This document shows positions 1 through 17,408 of a DNA stretch of 21,598 nucleotides, piece by piece (position 1 is the stretch's first letter; each line of letters opens with the position of its first letter). A program made the position numbers and the translations under genes. Source of the stretch: a virus. A model generated the notes under the pieces. That model ran no database searches. It was not told the DNA's origin and worked only from the letters and a program-made list of their open reading frames with translations. The DNA lies in the IMG/VR virus record IMGVR_UViG_3300028840_008161, positions 1 to 21,598 of that record. One strand, written 5' to 3'.

Positions 1-1314
1 CTACAATTTGGGCTGCGGGGGTGGGAGCTTGCCGCCGCCGACGGTCAGCGCGCGGATGACGCGATCGAGTTGCGTCTTGAATAGTGCGTGGTCCGTATTC
101 CAGCCCTTAAAGCTCGCCACGTTACGCGCCTTTAAGGCACGTCGATACTCCCCAGAATAGGACTCAAGCAGATAGCCATCCAAATCAAGCGGGATGAGGG
201 CCAGTACCTCCTCACCGCGCTGTTTAGTGAGTTCCTCCTCCTTGCCCAGCACCATTGAGATCTCTCTGTCCACCCACCAGCTGTGCAGCGCGGTCTCCGA
301 GCAGCACAGCAGCACTTTGTCCCAAATGCGAATGCCCAGGCTGACCTCGCGGGCGATCTTCTCCCCGGGCAGGATCTGATGGTCGTCCAGCCAACAGCGA
401 ATGCCCCGGCCCTGCAATCTGTCGTGCAGCAGGCGGGCGAAGTCGGCGTCCGCGTGGCTATAGCTGATGAAGCATGAATAGAACTCGATAACCTCTCCCC
501 GGAGTGATGGTAGCGAGGAAATCAGCTGCTCGGGCACGCCACTGCCACGCAAGAATACTGCTGGAAGGTCACCCGAAGTAGAGAAGATTGTGTCCACCGA
601 AATTTGGCTGGAGCCAACATGTACGATGCTCTCAAGCCCCTTGGCTGTAGAAAGGTCTACATCCGCGAAGGTGGTATAGTGACATGTTGCGCCAGTGAAG
701 TCTGACTCTGATAGGCGAGTGGTCTTGAAGTTTGCACCGCGCAAATCGGCCCCTGACAGGTTCGCTCCGTTCAGATTTGTCTTGGTCAAGTCAGCGTCTT
801 CGAGATTCACATCTCGAAGGTCAGCCCCGCTCAAGTTGGCCCTAACAAGATTGACGCCTGTCAGATTAGCATTGGGAAGACGTGCTAGGCTGAGATCCGC
901 TTCTTGGAGGTTGGCAAACCCAAGATCAGTGTTTGAAAGGTCGGCACCACTGAGATCGGCTCTCGCGAGATTGGCGTAGCGGAGATCAAGATACGACAAG
1001 TCTGCGTTTTGGAGCTTCTTGTGTGCGAGGTCTGCCCCCAACGTAAAGCGGACACCACGCACATCGAAAGTGGCTCGCCCAAGTCTCTCCATCGCGGTGT
1101 TGACAGCAGGCCAATTTGTCAACAAATCCACGATCCTACCAGAAAGGTCAGGAATGAATCTGCGATAGGAACCTGAAAGCAGAGTTCTCGTAATCAGGTA
1201 GAAACTCAGTATGGCCAGCCCGCTGGCGATGCCAAGGAACGCCTCTATCACTGTCAAGTTATGTGCATCCCCTTTAGCTACAGACTGCCTGTCATCAGTC
1301 GTGACCACTAACAA
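1..1314 (-). CDS. Membrane-anchored pentapeptide-repeat protein with C-terminal TIR domain
   Basis: 437 aa, complete. A hydrophobic segment at about residues 22-41 suggests an N-terminal membrane anchor. Residues 96-220 are a run of A(D/N)LxxA-type pentapeptide repeats, which fold as a right-handed quadrilateral helix in this family. Residues 278-420 look like a TIR domain: it opens with YSCFISYSHADADFA, contains CWLDDHQILPGEKI, and has an SWWVDREI motif whose Glu351 sits where TIR NADases carry the catalytic glutamate. Bacterial TIR domains commonly cleave NAD+ or make nucleotide signals in anti-phage defence; that role here is inference. The start used is TTG at 1314 (GTG at 1308 is an alternative). 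It overlaps the end of the upstream membrane-protein gene by 20 bp, implying translational coupling. The gene is clearly lower in GC than the capsid genes and opposes them, so it is likely acquired cargo. Confidence 0.85.
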   Translation of the reverse strand: MLVVTTDDRQSVAKGDAHNLTVIEAFLGIASGLAILSFYLITRTLLSGSYRRFIPDLSGRIVDLLTNWPAVNTAMERLGRATFDVRGVRFTLGADLAHKKLQNADLSYLDLRYANLARADLSGADLSNTDLGFANLQEADLSLARLPNANLTGVNLVRANLSGADLRDVNLEDADLTKTNLNGANLSGADLRGANFKTTRLSESDFTGATCHYTTFADVDLSTAKGLESIVHVGSSQISVDTIFSTSGDLPAVFLRGSGVPEQLISSLPSLRGEVIEFYSCFISYSHADADFARLLHDRLQGRGIRCWLDDHQILPGEKIAREVSLGIRIWDKVLLCCSETALHSWWVDREISMVLGKEEELTKQRGEEVLALIPLDLDGYLLESYSGEYRRALKARNVASFKGWNTDHALFKTQLDRVIRALTVGGGKLPPPQPKL

Positions 1315-1744
1315 AAGTAAGAAAGACTTGGATAAGAAAGCAAACTACGATAGTTATCACGGCCAAGACAACGGCGAGCGTGGCAATCTGCAACTGTTGG
1401 AAACCCAACGGCTGCACTCTCTCATGGATATACGTTATTGCGAAGAAACCAGCGCTGCCCACGAGAAAGAACACTTGTACCAAGAACAAGAACCTTACAA
1501 ACCAATCGTCCCGATTCTTCAGTTCCGCGTTGTGGAAATCACTGAATGTTGAGCCCCATATAGCCAGCGAGAAGAAATACAATTCTGTTGTACCTACCAA
1601 CTCCACAAATCTTGGATTTGTGCTCTGCAGGTAAGCAACTGCCACACCCACCACCAAGAAGAACAATGGAAAGAAGCAACTCATACCTAACCAGATGGTC
1701 AGCTTGCCAAAGTCCTTGGATGTTAGAGATAACTCATTTCTCAA
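1295..1744 (-). CDS. Small four-helix membrane protein, partner of the TIR protein
   Basis: 149 aa with four strongly hydrophobic segments at about residues 15-39, 48-66, 81-106 and 118-144 and no recognisable enzymatic motif. The TTG start at 1744 is chosen because AGAGGAG lies 8 nt upstream, an excellent ribosome binding site; no in-frame ATG gives a comparable fit. Its end overlaps the start of the TIR/pentapeptide gene by 20 bp, so the two are almost certainly one transcript made in this order. I do not recognise a family. By analogy with other two-gene systems that pair a membrane protein with a TIR effector it could be a sensor, pore or anchor, but nothing in the sequence proves this. 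Base composition matches its partner and not the phage genes. Confidence 0.75.
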   Translation of the reverse strand: MRNELSLTSKDFGKLTIWLGMSCFFPLFFLVVGVAVAYLQSTNPRFVELVGTTELYFFSLAIWGSTFSDFHNAELKNRDDWFVRFLFLVQVFFLVGSAGFFAITYIHERVQPLGFQQLQIATLAVVLAVITIVVCFLIQVFLTFVSGHD

Positions 1745-4095: not shown

Positions 4096-4163
4096 CACCC
4101 CCACCCGCCCAGCTAGCGCTGGGCACCCTCCCCCGTTCAACGGGGGAGGGAAGGGGAGGGGGT
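4096..4163. repeat. Type A palindromic repeat, copy 2
   Basis: CACCCCCACCCGCC at the left and GGGGAGGGGGTGAG at the right flank a perfect palindrome at 4126-4150 with the same arms as copy 1. A second small palindrome, CCCAGCTAGCGCTGGG, precedes it. It separates the head genes from the glycosyltransferase. Confidence 0.85.
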
Positions 4164-4185: not shown

Positions 4186-5442
4186 ATGAAAATCCTCTGG
4201 CTGAGCAACGCGCCCTGGAGCGCTACCGGATACGGCAACCAGACCGACATGTTCGTCTGGCGGCTGCGCGACCTGGGGCACGAGATCACGTGCAGCAATT
4301 TCTACGGCTTGCAGGGCGCGCCGCAAAAGCTGGATGGCATGCTGATGCTGCCCGCCGGGCGCGACGCCTTCGGGCAGGACGTGATCGCCGCCGACGCCGA
4401 GCACGTGGGGGCCGACATCGTGATCACGCTGGTGGACGCCTGGGTGCTCAGCCCGGAGATCACCCGGCGCTTCAACTGGGTGGCGTGGGCACCTATCGAC
4501 CACGACCCGATCCCGCCTGCCGTGGCCCGCTCGCTGGAGGCGGCGTTCCAGCCGATTGCCTACAGCCGCTTCGGCGAGGCCAGAATGCGCGAGGCTGGAT
4601 TGGACCCGCTCTACGTGCCGCACGGCGTCGACACAGACATTTTTTACCCGGTGGACAAGCGCACCGCCCGGGAGGCCATCGGAATCCCGCCCGAATACCA
4701 GGACCGTTTTCTGGTGGGCATCGTGGCGGCCAACAAGGGCACGCCCAGCCGCAAGGCGTTCGACCAGCAAATCCGGGCCTTTGCCCGCTTCCACGCCAAC
4801 CACCCGCGGGCGATGCTGTATCTGCACACCGACGTGACTGGCATCAACGGGGTCAGCATTCACGACATCATCCGGCTGGCGGGTTTGCCGGAGGAGGCCA
4901 TCGCTACCGTGCCGCCCTATCGCTACGCGCGGGGCATGATCGGCAAGGACGAGATGGCCCACCGTTACAGCGCGCTCGACGTGCTGCTCAACGCGACCAA
5001 GGGCGAGGGCTTCGGGCTGCCCATCGTGGAGGCGATGGCGTGCGGCGTGCCGGTGATCGTCACCGATTTCACCGCCATGCCCGAACTGGTCTCGGAGGGG
5101 GCGGGCTGGAAAGTGCCGGTGGACGGCGACTGCCTGACCTTCTCGCAGGAGAGCTACCAGGCCACGCCGCCGGTGAGCGGCATTCACGCCGCGCTGGAGC
5201 GGGCCTACCTGGAGGCGGGCGGCATGCGCGAGCAGGCTCGCCGGGGGGCGCTGGCCTACGACGCGGACGTGGTCACGGAACAGTATTGGAAGCCTGCGCT
5301 GGAAAAGATTGAGAAGAAACTGAAACGGGGCGAGGCGTCGAGCCGGGGGAAGAAGGATGGTGTCCACAGATTGCACAGATTACACGAGATTCAATCTGTG
5401 CCATCTGTGAAATCTGTGGACTCCCCAGGCTGCAAGCCTTGA
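4186..5442 (+). CDS. GT4-like (GT-B fold) glycosyltransferase
   Basis: 418 aa from ATG 4186 (MKILWLSNAPWSATGYGNQT); the upstream in-frame GTG at 4162 lies in repeat DNA. The N terminus has the first beta strand and Gly-rich loop of a GT-B donor/acceptor fold. PHGVDTDIFYP at about 145-155 and the EX7E motif EGFGLPIVE at 274-282, followed by AMACGVPVIVTD, are signatures of family 1/GT4 glycosyltransferases that use nucleotide sugars and retain anomeric configuration. A TALE-like tail is absent. Residues 393-412 are encoded by the type B repeat, so the natural C terminus has been extended by repeat insertion. It begins a block of three modification genes between head and connector genes. Substrate is unknown: capsid or tail protein, or host surface glycan. 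Confidence 0.85.
   Translation: MKILWLSNAPWSATGYGNQTDMFVWRLRDLGHEITCSNFYGLQGAPQKLDGMLMLPAGRDAFGQDVIAADAEHVGADIVITLVDAWVLSPEITRRFNWVAWAPIDHDPIPPAVARSLEAAFQPIAYSRFGEARMREAGLDPLYVPHGVDTDIFYPVDKRTAREAIGIPPEYQDRFLVGIVAANKGTPSRKAFDQQIRAFARFHANHPRAMLYLHTDVTGINGVSIHDIIRLAGLPEEAIATVPPYRYARGMIGKDEMAHRYSALDVLLNATKGEGFGLPIVEAMACGVPVIVTDFTAMPELVSEGAGWKVPVDGDCLTFSQESYQATPPVSGIHAALERAYLEAGGMREQARRGALAYDADVVTEQYWKPALEKIEKKLKRGEASSRGKKDGVHRLHRLHEIQSVPSVKSVDSPGCKP
5362..5421. repeat. Type B inverted-repeat element, copy 1
   Basis: 60 bp bounded by GTCCACAGATT (5362-5372) and AATCTGTGGAC (5411-5421), with further internal CACAGATT / AATCTGTG units. It is translated as part of the glycosyltransferase C terminus. 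A second copy lies at 7725-7785. Confidence 0.85.
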
Positions 5443-6747: not shown

Positions 6748-7329
6748 ATGGCAGCACGCGCGGGAATGACCAACCTGATTCGACGCCTGCGGGGGATGAC
6801 CGCTGCAGGCAGCGCCGACTACAGCGTGGACGGCGAGACGTGGTGGGCCGACGACCACCTGCAGGAGGTGCTCGACGCTTACCGCATCGACCTGAACCGC
6901 GTGCCCCTGTTCGCGCAGCCGGAGTACGACGGCGGCACGCCGCTCTACCACGATTACTACGCGCCGTTGGGCCACCTGGAAGAGGCGGCCAGCGGGAGCG
7001 CGGCCTGGGCCGTGGAGGATGGCGACGGGGACAACGTGGGCACGGCCAGCTACACGGCGGACTACGTGCGCGGCCTGATCCGTTTCAGCGCCGACCAGGG
7101 CGGCAGCGCCTACTACCTGCGGGCGCGGGCCTACAATCTGGCGGCGGCGGCGGCGCAGGTCTGGCGCGAGAAGATGGCCTCGACGGCGGCTTTCTACGCG
7201 GCCAGCGTGGACGGCCAGCGCCTGGACCGCGAGCAGTGGTTCGATCACTGCGAGCGCATGGTGCGGCGCTACGAGAGCGAGGCCGGGGTGCAGACCGTGG
7301 CCGTGAGCCGGACGGATATCGCGTCATGA
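6748..7329 (+). CDS. Head-tail connector (adaptor) protein
   Basis: 193 aa, ATG 6748 with GGAGG about 7 nt upstream. It begins with a short helix (MTNLIRRLRGMT), has TWWADDHLQEVLDAYRIDL, a beta-rich middle (YTADYVRGLIRFSADQGG) and a long Ala-rich helix followed by RLDREQWFDHCERMVRRYESE. This helix-plus-beta pattern and the position two genes before the tail terminator fit the gp6/gp15 ring that docks on the portal. It overlaps the next gene by ATGA, so the two are translationally coupled. Exact family assignment cannot be confirmed by eye. Confidence 0.65.
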   Translation: MAARAGMTNLIRRLRGMTAAGSADYSVDGETWWADDHLQEVLDAYRIDLNRVPLFAQPEYDGGTPLYHDYYAPLGHLEEAASGSAAWAVEDGDGDNVGTASYTADYVRGLIRFSADQGGSAYYLRARAYNLAAAAAQVWREKMASTAAFYAASVDGQRLDREQWFDHCERMVRRYESEAGVQTVAVSRTDIAS

Positions 7330-7703: not shown

Positions 7704-7724
7704 TAGGCCGGGCAAGAAACTGGA

Positions 7725-7785
7725 GTCCACAGATTACACAGATTTCACAGATTCTAATTTTGTGTAATCAGTGAAATCTGTGGAC
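7725..7785. repeat. Type B inverted-repeat element, copy 2
   Basis: 61 bp bounded by GTCCACAGATT (7725-7735) and AATCTGTGGAC (7775-7785). The inner units CACAGATT and GTGAAATC also pair. Unlike copy 1, it sits wholly between genes. Confidence 0.85.
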
Positions 7786-7816
7786 TATCCACCCGCTGAA
7801 CAGGAGGAGCAGAGTT

Positions 7817-8227
7817 ATGGCGGGACCGATAGGCGCGCTGGACGCGGCAATCTACGGCGAGTTGTCCGGCGGGGCCGGGCTGATCGCCGAGTTGGGCGGG
7901 ACGGCGATCTACAACCGGGTCGCGCCGCAGGAGGCGGGCCTGCCCTACGTGATCTTCCAGTGGCAGGGTGGCGGCGACGAAAACCTGACGCCCTCCCGCA
8001 CCCGGAACGTGGTCTACGTGGTCAAAGGGGTGGCCGACGCACTGAGCAAGGCCGAGGCCATCGACGAGCAGTGCGACGCGCTGCTGCACGGGCAGGCGCT
8101 GAGCGTGGCGGGCTGGAGCAACTTCTGGCTGGCGCGAGAGAGCGACATCGCCTACGTGGAAGTGGACGAGTCGGGCCGCCCGGTCTACCACAGCGGCGGC
8201 GTGTACCGGATTCGGGTGGGGCAGTGA
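7817..8227 (+). CDS. Tail terminator / tail completion protein (DUF3168-like)
   Basis: 136 aa, ATG 7817 preceded by AGGAGGAGC. It opens with a helix (GALDAAIYGELSGGAGLIAELGG) followed by TAIYNRVAPQEAGLPYVIFQW, the usual start of DUF3168/gp17-type proteins ('iy.gvpPqga.~PYvvf'). Later come VVYVVKGVADALSKAEAIDEQCDALLHGQAL and a final AYVEVDESGRPVYHSGGVYRIRVGQ strand pair. In characterised phages this protein forms the hexamer that caps the tail tube. Its last eleven codons are duplicated at 9072-9105 beyond an antisense gene. Confidence 0.75.
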   Translation: MAGPIGALDAAIYGELSGGAGLIAELGGTAIYNRVAPQEAGLPYVIFQWQGGGDENLTPSRTRNVVYVVKGVADALSKAEAIDEQCDALLHGQALSVAGWSNFWLARESDIAYVEVDESGRPVYHSGGVYRIRVGQ

Positions 8228-8248
8228 TCACCTTCGGTGAGCAGGCAG
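8195..8248 (+). repeat. Direct duplication flanking the antisense gene, left copy
   Basis: 54 bp including the 3' end and stop of the tail terminator gene. It matches 9072-9125 at 50 of 54 positions; both copies encode a final GVYRIRVGQ and stop, and the two differences before the stop codon are synonymous. Confidence 0.9.
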
Positions 8249-8256
8249 ACTCAGCG

Positions 8257-8997
8257 TCAATCGGGTGCCTGCGGAGTGCGCAAACACTCCGGTGGCTCGA
8301 CCATGTATTTCCCACACGACCCTGGCGGGGTTTGGAGCGGTTCAAAGGGTCCCCAGTCGAAGGCATCACACTCCCACGTCCGGTCTTGCGACGCGTACAG
8401 ACACGCCGGTGTGCCATACCTATCCGGCGAGTGCCAGTAGCCAAGGGTGAAGTCGTGGCCGTCGCTTTCGTACAGCCAGCCGGTGCCTTGCGTCGTCAGG
8501 GCATCAGGCAGGGTTTCCAAATGGGTTGGCTCAAGTTGGGTGAGTTCTTCCGGGTATTGGCCCGTGGCAGCATGGTATTTGTCAAGCGCCTGAATGATAA
8601 GATCGCCGTTGCGCTGGGTGGTTTCTTTTGGATCCTCAGGCGCATGCCAGTTGCCTGCCGCGATACTGAGAATCATCGCCGCGACAAGCGCCACCCAAAA
8701 TATGGGGCCTGCCAGCTTGCGCCAGCGCGGGAGAGTCCCCGCCAGCCAGATTGCCACGACGAGGGCAATGAAGGCGCTCAGGAGGCCGATCATGAAGGCG
8801 ACAGCACCTCCCAGCCCACCGAGGCTGGCTGACGCAAAAAGCGAAAGGCAAAGCAAGCCGATGGCAAGCACTGAGACCAACAGCCGCCACCATTGGATGC
8901 GCGCCTCGCGCAGGCCGGACCAGAGCAGATATCCGGCGAGGATTGGGGCGATGAACGGCCACACCATTGAGAAGGAATCGAGCAATCGGGTGTACAT
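8257..8997 (-). CDS. Four-helix membrane protein with C-terminal pseudopilin-like domain
   Basis: 246 aa. Hydrophobic segments lie at about residues 12-29, 36-57, 63-88 and 97-115. The soluble part (120-246) begins NGDLIIQALDKYHAATGQYPEELTQL, then GTGWLYESDGHDFTLGYW. This pattern of a helix ending in Y-x-x-x-x-G-x-Y-P followed by a beta sheet resembles the globular part of type II secretion pseudopilins, although the usual N-terminal pilin helix is missing. Four cysteines in the C-terminal part (199, 210, 228, 238) could form extracellular disulfides. The ATG at 8997 has AGGA 6 nt upstream. It lies antisense between the tail terminator and tail tube genes, bracketed by the 54-bp duplication. 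Function unknown; likely cargo acting at the host membrane. Confidence 0.75.
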   Translation of the reverse strand: MYTRLLDSFSMVWPFIAPILAGYLLWSGLREARIQWWRLLVSVLAIGLLCLSLFASASLGGLGGAVAFMIGLLSAFIALVVAIWLAGTLPRWRKLAGPIFWVALVAAMILSIAAGNWHAPEDPKETTQRNGDLIIQALDKYHAATGQYPEELTQLEPTHLETLPDALTTQGTGWLYESDGHDFTLGYWHSPDRYGTPACLYASQDRTWECDAFDWGPFEPLQTPPGSCGKYMVEPPECLRTPQAPD

Positions 8998-9071
8998 ACC
9001 TCGTCCTGGGCTTGACCTGGCACGATGGTATCACAAAAAGGCGTGCGCCGGGGCAGGGGGATGAGGACACT

Positions 9072-9125
9072 GGCGGCGTGTACCGGATTCGAGTGGGGCA
9101 ATGAACACTTTCGGTGAGCAGGCAG
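9072..9125 (+). repeat. Direct duplication flanking the antisense gene, right copy
   Basis: Second copy of 8195-8248 (50/54 identical). It holds an orphan 3' end of the tail terminator gene in the original reading frame (GGVYRIRVGQ, stop), with no start. Confidence 0.9.
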
Positions 9126-9334
9126 CGTTCAGCAGTCAGCTGACAGCAAGTGGGGCGCGGATTTCCACGGAGTGCATGGATCCCAGGTTGGCTGCGACGG
9201 CGGGTTCTCACCCCCACCCGCCTTCGCTGCGCTCAGGCCGCTACGCGTCCCCCTTTAAGGGGGACTCCAGTCCAGCGCTAGCTGGGGGGCCGGGGAGGGG
9301 GTTGTAGCTGACTGCTGGTAGCTGAAAGCTGGAA
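9124..9334. repeat. Composite repeat: type C arms around type A copy 3
   Basis: Type C units occur at 9124-9150 (CGTTCAGCAGTCAGCTGACAGC) and, roughly inverted, at 9304-9332 (GTAGCTGACTGCTGGTAGCTG). Between them a type A element (9208-9303) has its core palindrome at 9247-9265. The 356-nt gap from 8998 to 9353 therefore holds the duplicated gene end, these repeats and the tail tube ribosome binding site. I see no gene in it. Confidence 0.75.
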
Positions 9335-9353: not shown

Positions 9354-9755
9354 ATGGCTGAATTCACCGGCAAGAATCTGTACCTGGCGTTCGACGGCAC
9401 CGCCATCAACGCCGACTTCCGCGAGTTCTCGGAAGACGAAGAGGTGGGCACGGTGGACGCGTCGGCGGGGTCCGACGCGGCCCGCACCTACCTGACCACG
9501 CTGGAGGACGGCACGGCCAGCCTGACCCTGCTCTTGCAGGAGGACGGCACGGCGGCCACCGACCCGTGGCAGTTGATGGACAAGGGGAACGAGGGCACGC
9601 TGGAGTGGGGGCCGGAAGGGACGGCGGCAGGCAAGCCCCGGCACAGCGTCAACGCGATTGTGACCAGTCGCGGCAAGTCGGTGCCCTACGACGACGTGGT
9701 CGAGATGACGTTCAATTTTCAGTTCAGCGGCGTCGTCGCCGACTCGGCCTACTAG
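9354..9755 (+). CDS. Major tail tube protein
   Basis: 133 aa, ATG 9354 with AAGGAG about 11 nt upstream. It starts MAEFTGKNLYLAFDGTAINADFREFSEDEEVGTVDASAGSDAARTYL and goes on TLEDGTASLTLLLQEDG, then NAIVTSRGKSVPYDDVVEMTFNFQFSG. An N-terminal strand, a loop 'GssD..r.yl.t..~g~~sl~~l' and a final strand pair are typical of the two-sheet tail tube fold. The gene lies between the tail terminator and the chaperones, as expected. No contractile sheath gene is present, so the tail is non-contractile. Confidence 0.8.
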   Translation: MAEFTGKNLYLAFDGTAINADFREFSEDEEVGTVDASAGSDAARTYLTTLEDGTASLTLLLQEDGTAATDPWQLMDKGNEGTLEWGPEGTAAGKPRHSVNAIVTSRGKSVPYDDVVEMTFNFQFSGVVADSAY

Positions 9756-9797: not shown

Positions 9798-10145
9798 TCA
9801 CTCCTGCCCGGCCATCGGGTCGGGGCCATACTGATTCGGCCCCTCGGTGCCTTTCACGAAGCCGCACTGGTACAGGGCGTACAGGGAGCCAAAGGGCACC
9901 AGGTTGACCAACATCCACCAGCCCGATTTGTCCACGTCGTGCCAGCGCTTGATCTGGATCGCCAGGGAGGGCCAGACCGACAGCAGCGAGAACACGACGA
10001 CGATAGCCAGGGCAGCCGCCGAGTCGCTGAGGCGGGCCACGATCATCATGACGAGGTTGATGACCGTTATCAACAGCGTGCCGATCCAGAAATCCTCGCG
10101 GTTGATGCGGCCTTTGGTCGAAAGCAGCAGGTTGAAGATATCCAT
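9798..10145 (-). CDS. DUF805-family membrane protein
   Basis: 115 aa from ATG 10145 (MDIFNLLLSTKGRINREDFW), the usual N terminus of the family; longer in-frame starts run into unrelated sequence. Hydrophobic segments lie at about residues 20-37, 43-63 and 77-92. The conserved KRWHDVDKSGWW (67-77) and the C-terminal GPNQYGPDP (102-110) identify DUF805, small inner-membrane proteins of unknown function. It lies antisense between the tail tube and chaperone genes, a place where phage genes are normally adjacent, so it is probably cargo. The ribosome binding site is weak. Confidence 0.85.
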   Translation of the reverse strand: MDIFNLLLSTKGRINREDFWIGTLLITVINLVMMIVARLSDSAAALAIVVVFSLLSVWPSLAIQIKRWHDVDKSGWWMLVNLVPFGSLYALYQCGFVKGTEGPNQYGPDPMAGQE

Positions 10146-10232: not shown

Positions 10233-10517
10233 GTGACGGGCAAAACGGAGCAAGCAGAACAGGCAAACGACAACCCGCGCCAGGTGACACTGAGCGACGG
10301 GCGCGAGGTCGAGGTGGACCTCTACAGCGTGACCTACGCCGAGGTGGTCGAGATGACCGACCCGGCCACGCCGCTGGACCGCATGCACGCCTTGATGGGG
10401 CAGGTGGTCGGGCTGAAGGGCGACGAGCTGGCCGCGCTGCCTTACCCGGATTACCGCCGGGTGGACCGGGCGGTCTTCCGGCTGCTCAAGGACCCGCTGG
10501 GTGCGGACCCAAACTGA
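10233..10517 (+). CDS. Tail assembly chaperone G-like protein
   Basis: 94 aa from GTG 10233. The region VTLSDGREVEVDLYSVTYAEVVEM followed by DPATPLDRMHALMGQVVGLKGDELAALPYPDYRRVDRAVFRLLKDPL resembles the N-terminal part of G-type chaperones, which coat the tape measure during tail assembly. The protein ends two codons after a slippery heptamer, exactly at the end of the zero frame; a fraction of ribosomes should shift to make the longer product described separately. Upstream is the minus-strand DUF805 gene, so this gene must be transcribed across it or from a local promoter. Confidence 0.75.
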   Translation: MTGKTEQAEQANDNPRQVTLSDGREVEVDLYSVTYAEVVEMTDPATPLDRMHALMGQVVGLKGDELAALPYPDYRRVDRAVFRLLKDPLGADPN

Positions 10518-10729: not shown

Positions 10730-10809
10730 CTACCCCCACCCATCCTCGCTTCGCTCGGATTTCCCTCCCCCTTAAAGGGGGAGGGCCCGCGCAGCGGGGG
10801 TGGGGGTGA
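10730..10809. repeat. Type A palindromic repeat, copy 4
   Basis: The core at 10763-10785 is a 23-nt palindrome of CCCTCCCCCTT and its complement around one base, framed by TACCCCCACCC and GGGGGTGGGGGTG. It separates the chaperone and gp10-like genes. Confidence 0.85.
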
Positions 10810-11255: not shown

Positions 11256-12149
11256 TTACTGAGACAAAGCGCAGACTCTCACATAGTCGATTGCTACATG
11301 CGCGCCAGATACCTCCAATCCAATAGTGCCCCTCTCGTAGAGGTCCTCTACGTCTATCAAGGTATCGATATGTTGGTCGTCAACATAGAAAGTGAACACA
11401 TTGTCCTTCGCGACTACAGTCAGAGTGTGACTGTTGGCCTGCCTGTCGACGGAGCGCGCGTAACCACGCCAGATAAGGGCAGAGGGCCAACCGACACCTG
11501 TATCGCTCACATTGAAATCCGGTCGCTCGACATTGTACACCTGTTCGTTCGGAATCATCTCAAATGAATAGAAACGTTGCCATGTGTGTGGACCAGGGTA
11601 ATGGGCACGGAAAAGGAGAGAGTAGGAGTAGCTGCCTTTGCCGTCCACCGTGGCTACCGAAGCGGTGTAAGCGAAATCCCGCCATTCAAAGTAGTCCCCC
11701 TCGGAAAAGACGTGACGTGCTTGGTCTTTGCCAAGGGAGACGTGGTAATGCCCGTCTTCAATCCAGAAGAGATTGGAGTCCCAATCCGGCCACTCGTTGC
11801 TGTTGTCATCGAAGTTGTCCTCAAACAGCACCTCGCATTGCTCTGGGGGCGCGAGGGGCGTGAGGGTTGTCTCGGTGTCAGCAGCCGCTGTGGATTCTGG
11901 CCTAGTGGTGGGCAGCGGGCTAGCCGTGGCCGGTTCATCAGTCGCGGGGGCAACGACTGTGGGAGCTTGTGAAGCGCCAATGACCGCACGAATAATCTCA
12001 GGGGCGATCGCAGCAATGATTGCGGCTGCAGCCCCGATGATTGCTGCAACGATTACCGGGTTGGCTCTCTCCCTAGCCGTGCCTGCATTCGTGGCTTCCG
12101 AACCGGTAAATTCAGGTTCGCCGCCCGCATCCCTGTTTGGAGAAGCCAT
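11256..12149 (-). CDS. Membrane-anchored protein with concanavalin-like (LamG/DUF1080-type) outer domain
   Basis: 297 aa, ATG 12149. A polar N terminus of about 30 residues precedes one hydrophobic segment (about 32-58), then a Pro/Thr/Ala-rich linker (61-102) and a beta-rich domain (105-297). The domain starts with CEVLFEDNFDDNSNEWP, typical of LamG or glycosidase-like jelly rolls ('F.D.Fddns..W'), and has SYSYSLLFRAHYPG and TFYVDDQHIDTLIDVEDLYERGTIGLEVSGAHVAIDYVRV, the usual last strands of such domains. Cys105 and Cys293 could be paired. No catalytic residues are recognised, so a sugar- or surface-binding role is likelier than hydrolysis. Antisense, lower in GC than the neighbours, and inserted between the gp10-like and tape measure genes; function unknown. 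Confidence 0.75.
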   Translation of the reverse strand: MASPNRDAGGEPEFTGSEATNAGTARERANPVIVAAIIGAAAAIIAAIAPEIIRAVIGASQAPTVVAPATDEPATASPLPTTRPESTAAADTETTLTPLAPPEQCEVLFEDNFDDNSNEWPDWDSNLFWIEDGHYHVSLGKDQARHVFSEGDYFEWRDFAYTASVATVDGKGSYSYSLLFRAHYPGPHTWQRFYSFEMIPNEQVYNVERPDFNVSDTGVGWPSALIWRGYARSVDRQANSHTLTVVAKDNVFTFYVDDQHIDTLIDVEDLYERGTIGLEVSGAHVAIDYVRVCALSQ

Positions 12150-12288: not shown

Positions 12289-13017
12289 ATGACGACGATA
12301 GCGACGGCTCACGTACAAGGCAGCAGCAACCTGGGGGCGGTGCTGGGCGATTTGCGCGCCCTGCGCGGCGAGTTAGACGCCATTCGCGGCATGGGCGGCC
12401 CGGCAGGCCCCCAGATCGGGGACGTGCGCGGCGGGCTGGACACCCTCCGGGCACAGGGCGACCTGCTGCGCGGCCTGCTGGGCGACCTGCCCACCGAGCA
12501 TCGGCTCACCTTCCAGACCAACGCGCCCGCCGCCGCGACCTCGGTGCGGAGCTACAGCGCCGCCGTCCGAAGGGTCCCGGCGGCGCAGCGGACCGCTTTT
12601 CAGGCCGACACCCGCGCGGCGCGGGGCGACGTGAAGGCGCTGGAGCGGGCCATCGACAGGCTGCCCACCCGGCGCGTCATCACCCTCCAGGTGAGAACCG
12701 AGGGCGGCGTTCCTGCCTTGCAGGGCGGCGCGCACGACTTCGCGGGCGGGCTGGCGCTGGTCGGCGAGGCCGGGCCGGAGTTGGTCGCCCTGCCGCGCGG
12801 CGCGGACGTGATCCCCGCCGGACAGACGAAGCACCTGCTTGCGACGGGCACGATGGCCGCAGAAGACAGCCGTGGGGCAGGGGGGTCGGTTCAGGTGAAG
12901 GGCGGTACCCAGGAGCACCACTACCACATCCACGGCCCGGTGCACCTGCACCCCCAGGGATCCACCGGCATCGCGGATGCCCTTCGAGAACTTCGTATAG
13001 TGATGTCAGGACTCTAA
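12289..13017 (+). CDS. Short tape measure protein
   Basis: 242 aa from ATG 12289 (an in-frame ATG 18 nt upstream is possible). Residues 15-65 and 100-125 are helical and Ala/Arg/Leu-rich. Residues 151-177, with GGLALVGEAGPELVALPRG and ADVIPA, carry the LVGExGPELVxLPxGxxVIPA motif seen near the C-terminal part of many tape measures. A His-rich run (EHHYHIHGPVHLH) follows. No long central hydrophobic segment is present. Typical siphovirus tape measures are 600 aa or more; this one is less than half, so it specifies a very short tail or has suffered an internal deletion. The neighbours, chaperones upstream and Dit downstream, support the identification. Confidence 0.7.
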   Translation: MTTIATAHVQGSSNLGAVLGDLRALRGELDAIRGMGGPAGPQIGDVRGGLDTLRAQGDLLRGLLGDLPTEHRLTFQTNAPAAATSVRSYSAAVRRVPAAQRTAFQADTRAARGDVKALERAIDRLPTRRVITLQVRTEGGVPALQGGAHDFAGGLALVGEAGPELVALPRGADVIPAGQTKHLLATGTMAAEDSRGAGGSVQVKGGTQEHHYHIHGPVHLHPQGSTGIADALRELRIVMSGL

Positions 13018-17320: not shown

Positions 17321-17408
17321 CACGCTTTGCTTCGCAAAGCTCAGGACAGGCCCCCTCCCAACCCTCCCCCTTAAAGGGGGAGGGTGGCCGCAGGCCGGGT
17401 GGGGGTCG
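17321..17408. repeat. Type A palindromic repeat, copy 5
   Basis: Core palindrome at 17362-17384 is the same as copy 4. CTTTGCTTCGCAAAG upstream is another small palindrome. The gap 17258-17478 holds this repeat and the ribosome binding site of the GH16 gene; I see no other gene there. Confidence 0.85.

Follow-up and report, generated by a model that had tools for sequence, protein, structure and literature searches.

A virus-like cluster of tail genes, linked to Anaerolineae bacteria, contains two copies of a 54-bp stretch in which the tail terminator gene ends, and a single antisense membrane-protein gene lies between the two copies. This arrangement is most simply read as the scar of an insertion. 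The window, meaning the whole stretch of DNA that was analysed, is a virus record of 21,598 nucleotides. Our preferred explanation, to which we assign a probability of about one half, is a single-gene, moron-like insertion, accompanied by copying of the target, into a tail operon belonging to a siphovirus-like element from Chloroflexota (Anaerolineae). The entry of extra genes into phage operons is rarely caught at the sequence level; with a gene-end duplication beside a truncated repeat element, the scar of one such entry can be read here. The locus as it stands is a single, well-bounded example.

A duplicated gene end in the tail operon

Profile matches place a head-and-tail module in the window, starting with a capsid-like gene at 2801, a glycosyltransferase gene at 4162, a head completion gene at 7326 and the tail terminator gene (TERM) at 7817, and continuing with the major tail protein gene (MTP) at 9354, a tail chaperone gene at 10233 and a neck protein gene at 10800. 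Viral-contig relatives and a genome bin named Anaerolineae keep the same gene order, from head completion through terminator, tail tube and chaperone to neck. TERM (7817–8227, plus strand) is intact and ends in GGVYRIRVGQ*. It matches PF11367 (Tail_completion_gp17; E = 4.9e-6, 27.1 bits against a curated cut-off of 24.5) and phrog_176, ‘tail terminator’ (E = 5e-4), and its relatives in the syntenic position are 46–60% identical, so that both a profile match above the cut-off and neck and tail synteny identify the gene. MTP, the tail tube gene (9354–9755, plus strand), was assigned by a match to phrog_10528 (2e-8) and by its spacing in relatives. The gap between TERM and MTP is 1–105 bp in relatives (63 distinct loci, some of them near-identical) and 1126 bp in this record, so the block between the two genes is an insertion. 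Two relatives with a longer gap each have an additional sense gene there, and a cargo of the kind described here was unique among the loci sampled.

Other features of this module were also observed. The tape measure protein (12289–13017) has only about 243 residues, compared with 671–850 in four syntenic relatives, whose proteins match that of the window in their C-terminal part only; this implies a tail that is very short or decayed, or else a particle resembling a gene-transfer agent. The tail chaperone gene carries a slippery heptamer, C CCA AAC, at 10508–10517, directly 5′ of its TGA, with the −1 frame open to 10726, as in the usual G/GT frameshift. The relatives’ chaperone genes have an equal arrangement of heptamer and −1 frame.

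Alignment of 8195–8248 with 9072–9125 (both plus strand) gave identity at 50 of 54 positions, in agreement with the original prediction to the base. Extended to the left, the pair covers 8190–8248 and 9067–9125 with 53 of 59 positions identical (90%), and gapped extension past the 54 bp gained almost nothing. A record of this size would contain about 1e-16 such pairs by chance, and the full record has the two copies only. Each copy consists of the last 10 codons of TERM, the stop and a further 21 bp, and both translate to GGVYRIRVGQ*. The left copy is thus the end of the functional gene and the right copy an orphan gene end, with the antisense cargo between them, as had been proposed. The copies differ, left against right, by CGG/CGA, CAG/CAA, T/A and C/T; the two codon differences before the stop are synonymous, as had also been noted, and the encoded peptide is identical. 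An exact-pattern search of the viral contig collection for the repeat returned nothing. A 16-base core of it occurs in 28 viral loci, a result that we attribute to chance in view of the shortness of the word; the longest of these matches (locus L149, 59 nucleotides at 76%) is an unrelated coding stretch. Both copies folded as RNA no better than shuffled sequences, and there was no support for taking the 21 bp that follow the stop as the beginning of another gene (a GTG or ATG overlapping the TGA, followed by TFGEQA).

From the right copy, the sequence runs without a break into an intact repeat element. This includes a degenerate heptad array, (GTCAGCA)5, at 9114–9148 on the plus strand (GTGAGCA GGCAGCG TTCAGCA GTCAGCT GACAGCA), whose first unit or units lie within the 54-bp repeat. 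At 9306–9333 (minus strand; repeats I19 and D1), 160 bp further on, inverted heptads mark the far end of this intergenic element, ahead of the tail tube gene. The left copy is broken off within the element, with the first unit or units followed by cargo DNA. Because the start of the heptads is common to both copies, we infer that the element was probably already present downstream of TERM before the duplication. Elsewhere in the window, heptad arrays occupy further intergenic positions (5462, 6006, 6133, 6658, 6702, 14970 and 15081), and similar arrays recur in Anaerolineae-class chromosomes. The suspicion that the repeat is a general dispersed element unrelated to TERM is thereby false for the coding portion, which has two copies only, though the last ~13 nucleotides belong to a dispersed heptad array.

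Two further families of intergenic elements were seen. Palindromic CCACAGATTACACAGATTTCACAGATT elements occupy the gaps at 5358–5424 and 7724–7786, and the motif has 90 copies in one Anaerolineae-class genome (G069), so intergenic repeats of host type have entered the phage operon and spread there. A third palindromic family, with arms CCCTCCCCC...GGGGGAGGG, is found at 2646–2723, 4098–4150, 9215–9300, 10763–10807 and 17362–17406.

The cargo gene and its relatives

The cargo gene (8257–8997, minus strand) would encode a host-type membrane protein of 246 amino acids, to judge from hydropathy, predicted helices at residues 2–117 and its chromosomal relatives. Hydropathy and the predicted structure suggest a helical membrane first half and a soluble second half. 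The ATG is preceded by a Shine–Dalgarno-like AGGACGAGG. The 5′ region (8998–9071, minus strand) contains a possible extended −10 element, TGA-TACCAT, picked out by eye only; a consensus scan for promoters at the cargo found no site, which we count against the preferred explanation.

Searches of Pfam, PHROGs, NCBIfam and PADLOC gave the cargo no significant match, and the phage, plasmid, viral contig and genome contig collections contained no relatives of it. Relatives were found in 19 of 396 sampled genomes of the class to which the genome bin named Anaerolineae belongs, the best being 41% identical over 216 amino acids and the next 37%; in these chromosomes the homologues adjoin ordinary cellular genes. 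Genome searches at family and order level around G345, G249, G069 and G001 found no closer donor or prophage. The GC content of the cargo is 0.61, compared with 0.60–0.71 for phage genes, and its GC3 is 0.70, compared with 0.79–0.94. By its sequence, the cargo appears to be a host-type, moron-like gene. The second half of one relative matches type II secretion protein G (T2SSG) weakly, below the cut-off (E = 0.035), from which a pilin-like outer domain in the cargo may be guessed. With a mean pLDDT of 54.8, the single-sequence structure model was not good enough to be searched for similar folds.

The tail operon has two other antisense genes, one encoding a DUF805 membrane protein (9798–10145, minus strand; PF05656, 4e-28) and one encoding a 297-amino-acid protein of no family (11256–12149, minus strand). 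No gene-end duplications flank either of them, and the lack of such scars at these two genes is also counted against the preferred explanation. A 29-nucleotide repeat bracketing the DUF805 gene (9681–9709 and 10329–10357) was taken as chance, because its copies sit within MTP and chaperone codons and the MTP motif is kept in relatives. Two genes lie upstream of those for scaffold and capsid, one encoding a pentapeptide-repeat protein with a TIR domain (1–1314, minus strand; PF13676, 6e-19, and PADLOC TIR models) and, beside it, one encoding a small low-GC membrane protein (1295–1744, minus strand); the two are possibly defence cargo.

Divergence of the copies and origin of the insertion

The original prediction had read the synonymous differences as a sign that each copy was under coding selection separately. 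The prediction is borne out for the duplicated TERM 3′ end, its orphan copy and the antisense cargo, but separate coding selection is not supported, as two silent changes arise by chance in 7–18% of cases. The probability that two random substitutions in the 33 coding nucleotides are both synonymous is 0.07–0.11, and it is 0.18 if only G:C>A:T transitions are allowed; moreover, selection would in any case let only silent changes persist in the left copy, which is functional. In both cases it is the right copy that carries the minority codon: phage genes use CGA 18 times and CGG 109 times (18/127), and CAA 34 times and CAG 172 times (34/206). All three differences between G/C and A/T have the A/T state in the right copy. 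Neutral decay of an orphan accounts for these codons and this bias no less well, although the bias of the four substitutions could be chance, given so few sites, and a donor phage of lower GC is possibly compatible with it too. The comparison with uninterrupted loci suggested for telling the copies apart used the gene ends of 22 relatives, which score both about equally; polarizing the four differences failed because these ends are too distant. If the right copy is neutral, the divergence of about 7% accumulated since the insertion, and together with the open neighbouring structural genes it suggests that the module was still selected afterwards.

According to the preferred explanation, a host-type heptad element would first have settled between TERM and MTP. 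A chromosomal gene would then have become linked to the heptad array on its 3′ side and, on its 5′ side, to a site in TERM lying 54 bp upstream, leaving the target in two copies. At the heptads, a replicating or repairing end may have changed template to the chromosome and come back slightly upstream; at the right junction we saw no clear homology accounting for the point of return. Selection would have maintained the left copy, as the end of TERM, and the right copy would have drifted. The cargo might have a promoter of its own that is active in the lysogen, and its product might act at the host envelope. Neither an empty-site relative nor a donor chromosome above 41% protein identity was found, so the order and the mechanism are read from one sequence.

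It is possible, though we think it doubtful, that, in line with the original prediction, a sister phage with the cargo beside its own TERM end recombined illegitimately with this one, the gene ends having diverged before they met. Phage mosaicism is general, and such an exchange would agree with it and with 7% divergence over an identical encoded peptide. The synonymy, however, is expected by chance at the frequencies given above, the codons in the right copy are minority ones in this phage, and the sister would have to carry the same heptad repeat at the same place, since both copies include its start; no such sister was found in the viral contig collection by exact-pattern or protein search. 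We prefer insertion with target copying mainly because it needs no unseen phage with the same heptad element. A bolder reading, in which host intergenic heptads are landing pads that recombine with like repeats beside chromosomal genes, seems unlikely to us; if it were true, a prophage or domesticated Anaerolineae particle would load host genes into its tail operon, with gene-end duplications as the scars.

Site-specific integration, with the 54-bp repeat as attL- and attR-like arms and the cargo as a small element whose insertion makes the gene end whole again, a behaviour known from integrative elements at tRNA or tmRNA genes, would account for a complete left end and a displaced right end. 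We consider it improbable: the 823-bp insert (8249–9071) contains one gene and no recombinase match, the arms differ by 7% and share no exact core longer than 20 bp, and no other element of this kind occupies the TERM–MTP site in the 63 loci. Chimeric assembly of two strains comes into question for a single metagenomic record and is very improbable here, as the open frames are intact across both flanks and the longest exact word common to the copies in the alignment is 20 bp, shorter than the k-mers in normal assembler use, which makes collapse or misassembly at the repeat unlikely. Transposition of the cargo as mobile DNA, with target duplication, would explain direct repeats at both ends of the insert and has the lowest probability of all, because 54 bp is far above the usual length of transposon target duplications and the insert has neither terminal inverted repeats nor a transposase.

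Comparison with known systems

Elements that integrate at att-type sites and duplicate or restore a gene 3′ end resemble this locus in having one complete end and a displaced end opposite, whereas here there is no recombinase, the arms are 7% diverged and occupancy of the site does not recur among the loci sampled. Transposons carry inverted repeats at their termini and duplicate a short target; the insert has no such inverted repeats and its duplication is 54 bp. Arrays of the heptamer TAACTGA lie between genes in Beggiatoaceae and Cyanobacteria (PMC4679880), and, like those described here, they are short and dispersed; the present arrays differ in being of GTCAGCA, degenerate, in inverted pairs and within a phage operon. 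The closest likeness is to phage morons, as defined by Hendrix 2000 and Juhala 2000 and given in PMC6814406. As in a moron, an extra gene lies between structural genes that are adjacent in relatives (1126 bp against 1–105 bp), outside the virion module of those relatives, and its composition and relatives are unlike those of the phage (GC3 of 0.70 against 0.79–0.94, with chromosomal relatives). A moron would also have a promoter (and a terminator) of its own for expression in the prophage; the promoter of this cargo is putative. Unlike typical morons, the cargo is antisense and of Anaerolineae type, and it is bordered by a 54-bp duplicated gene end.
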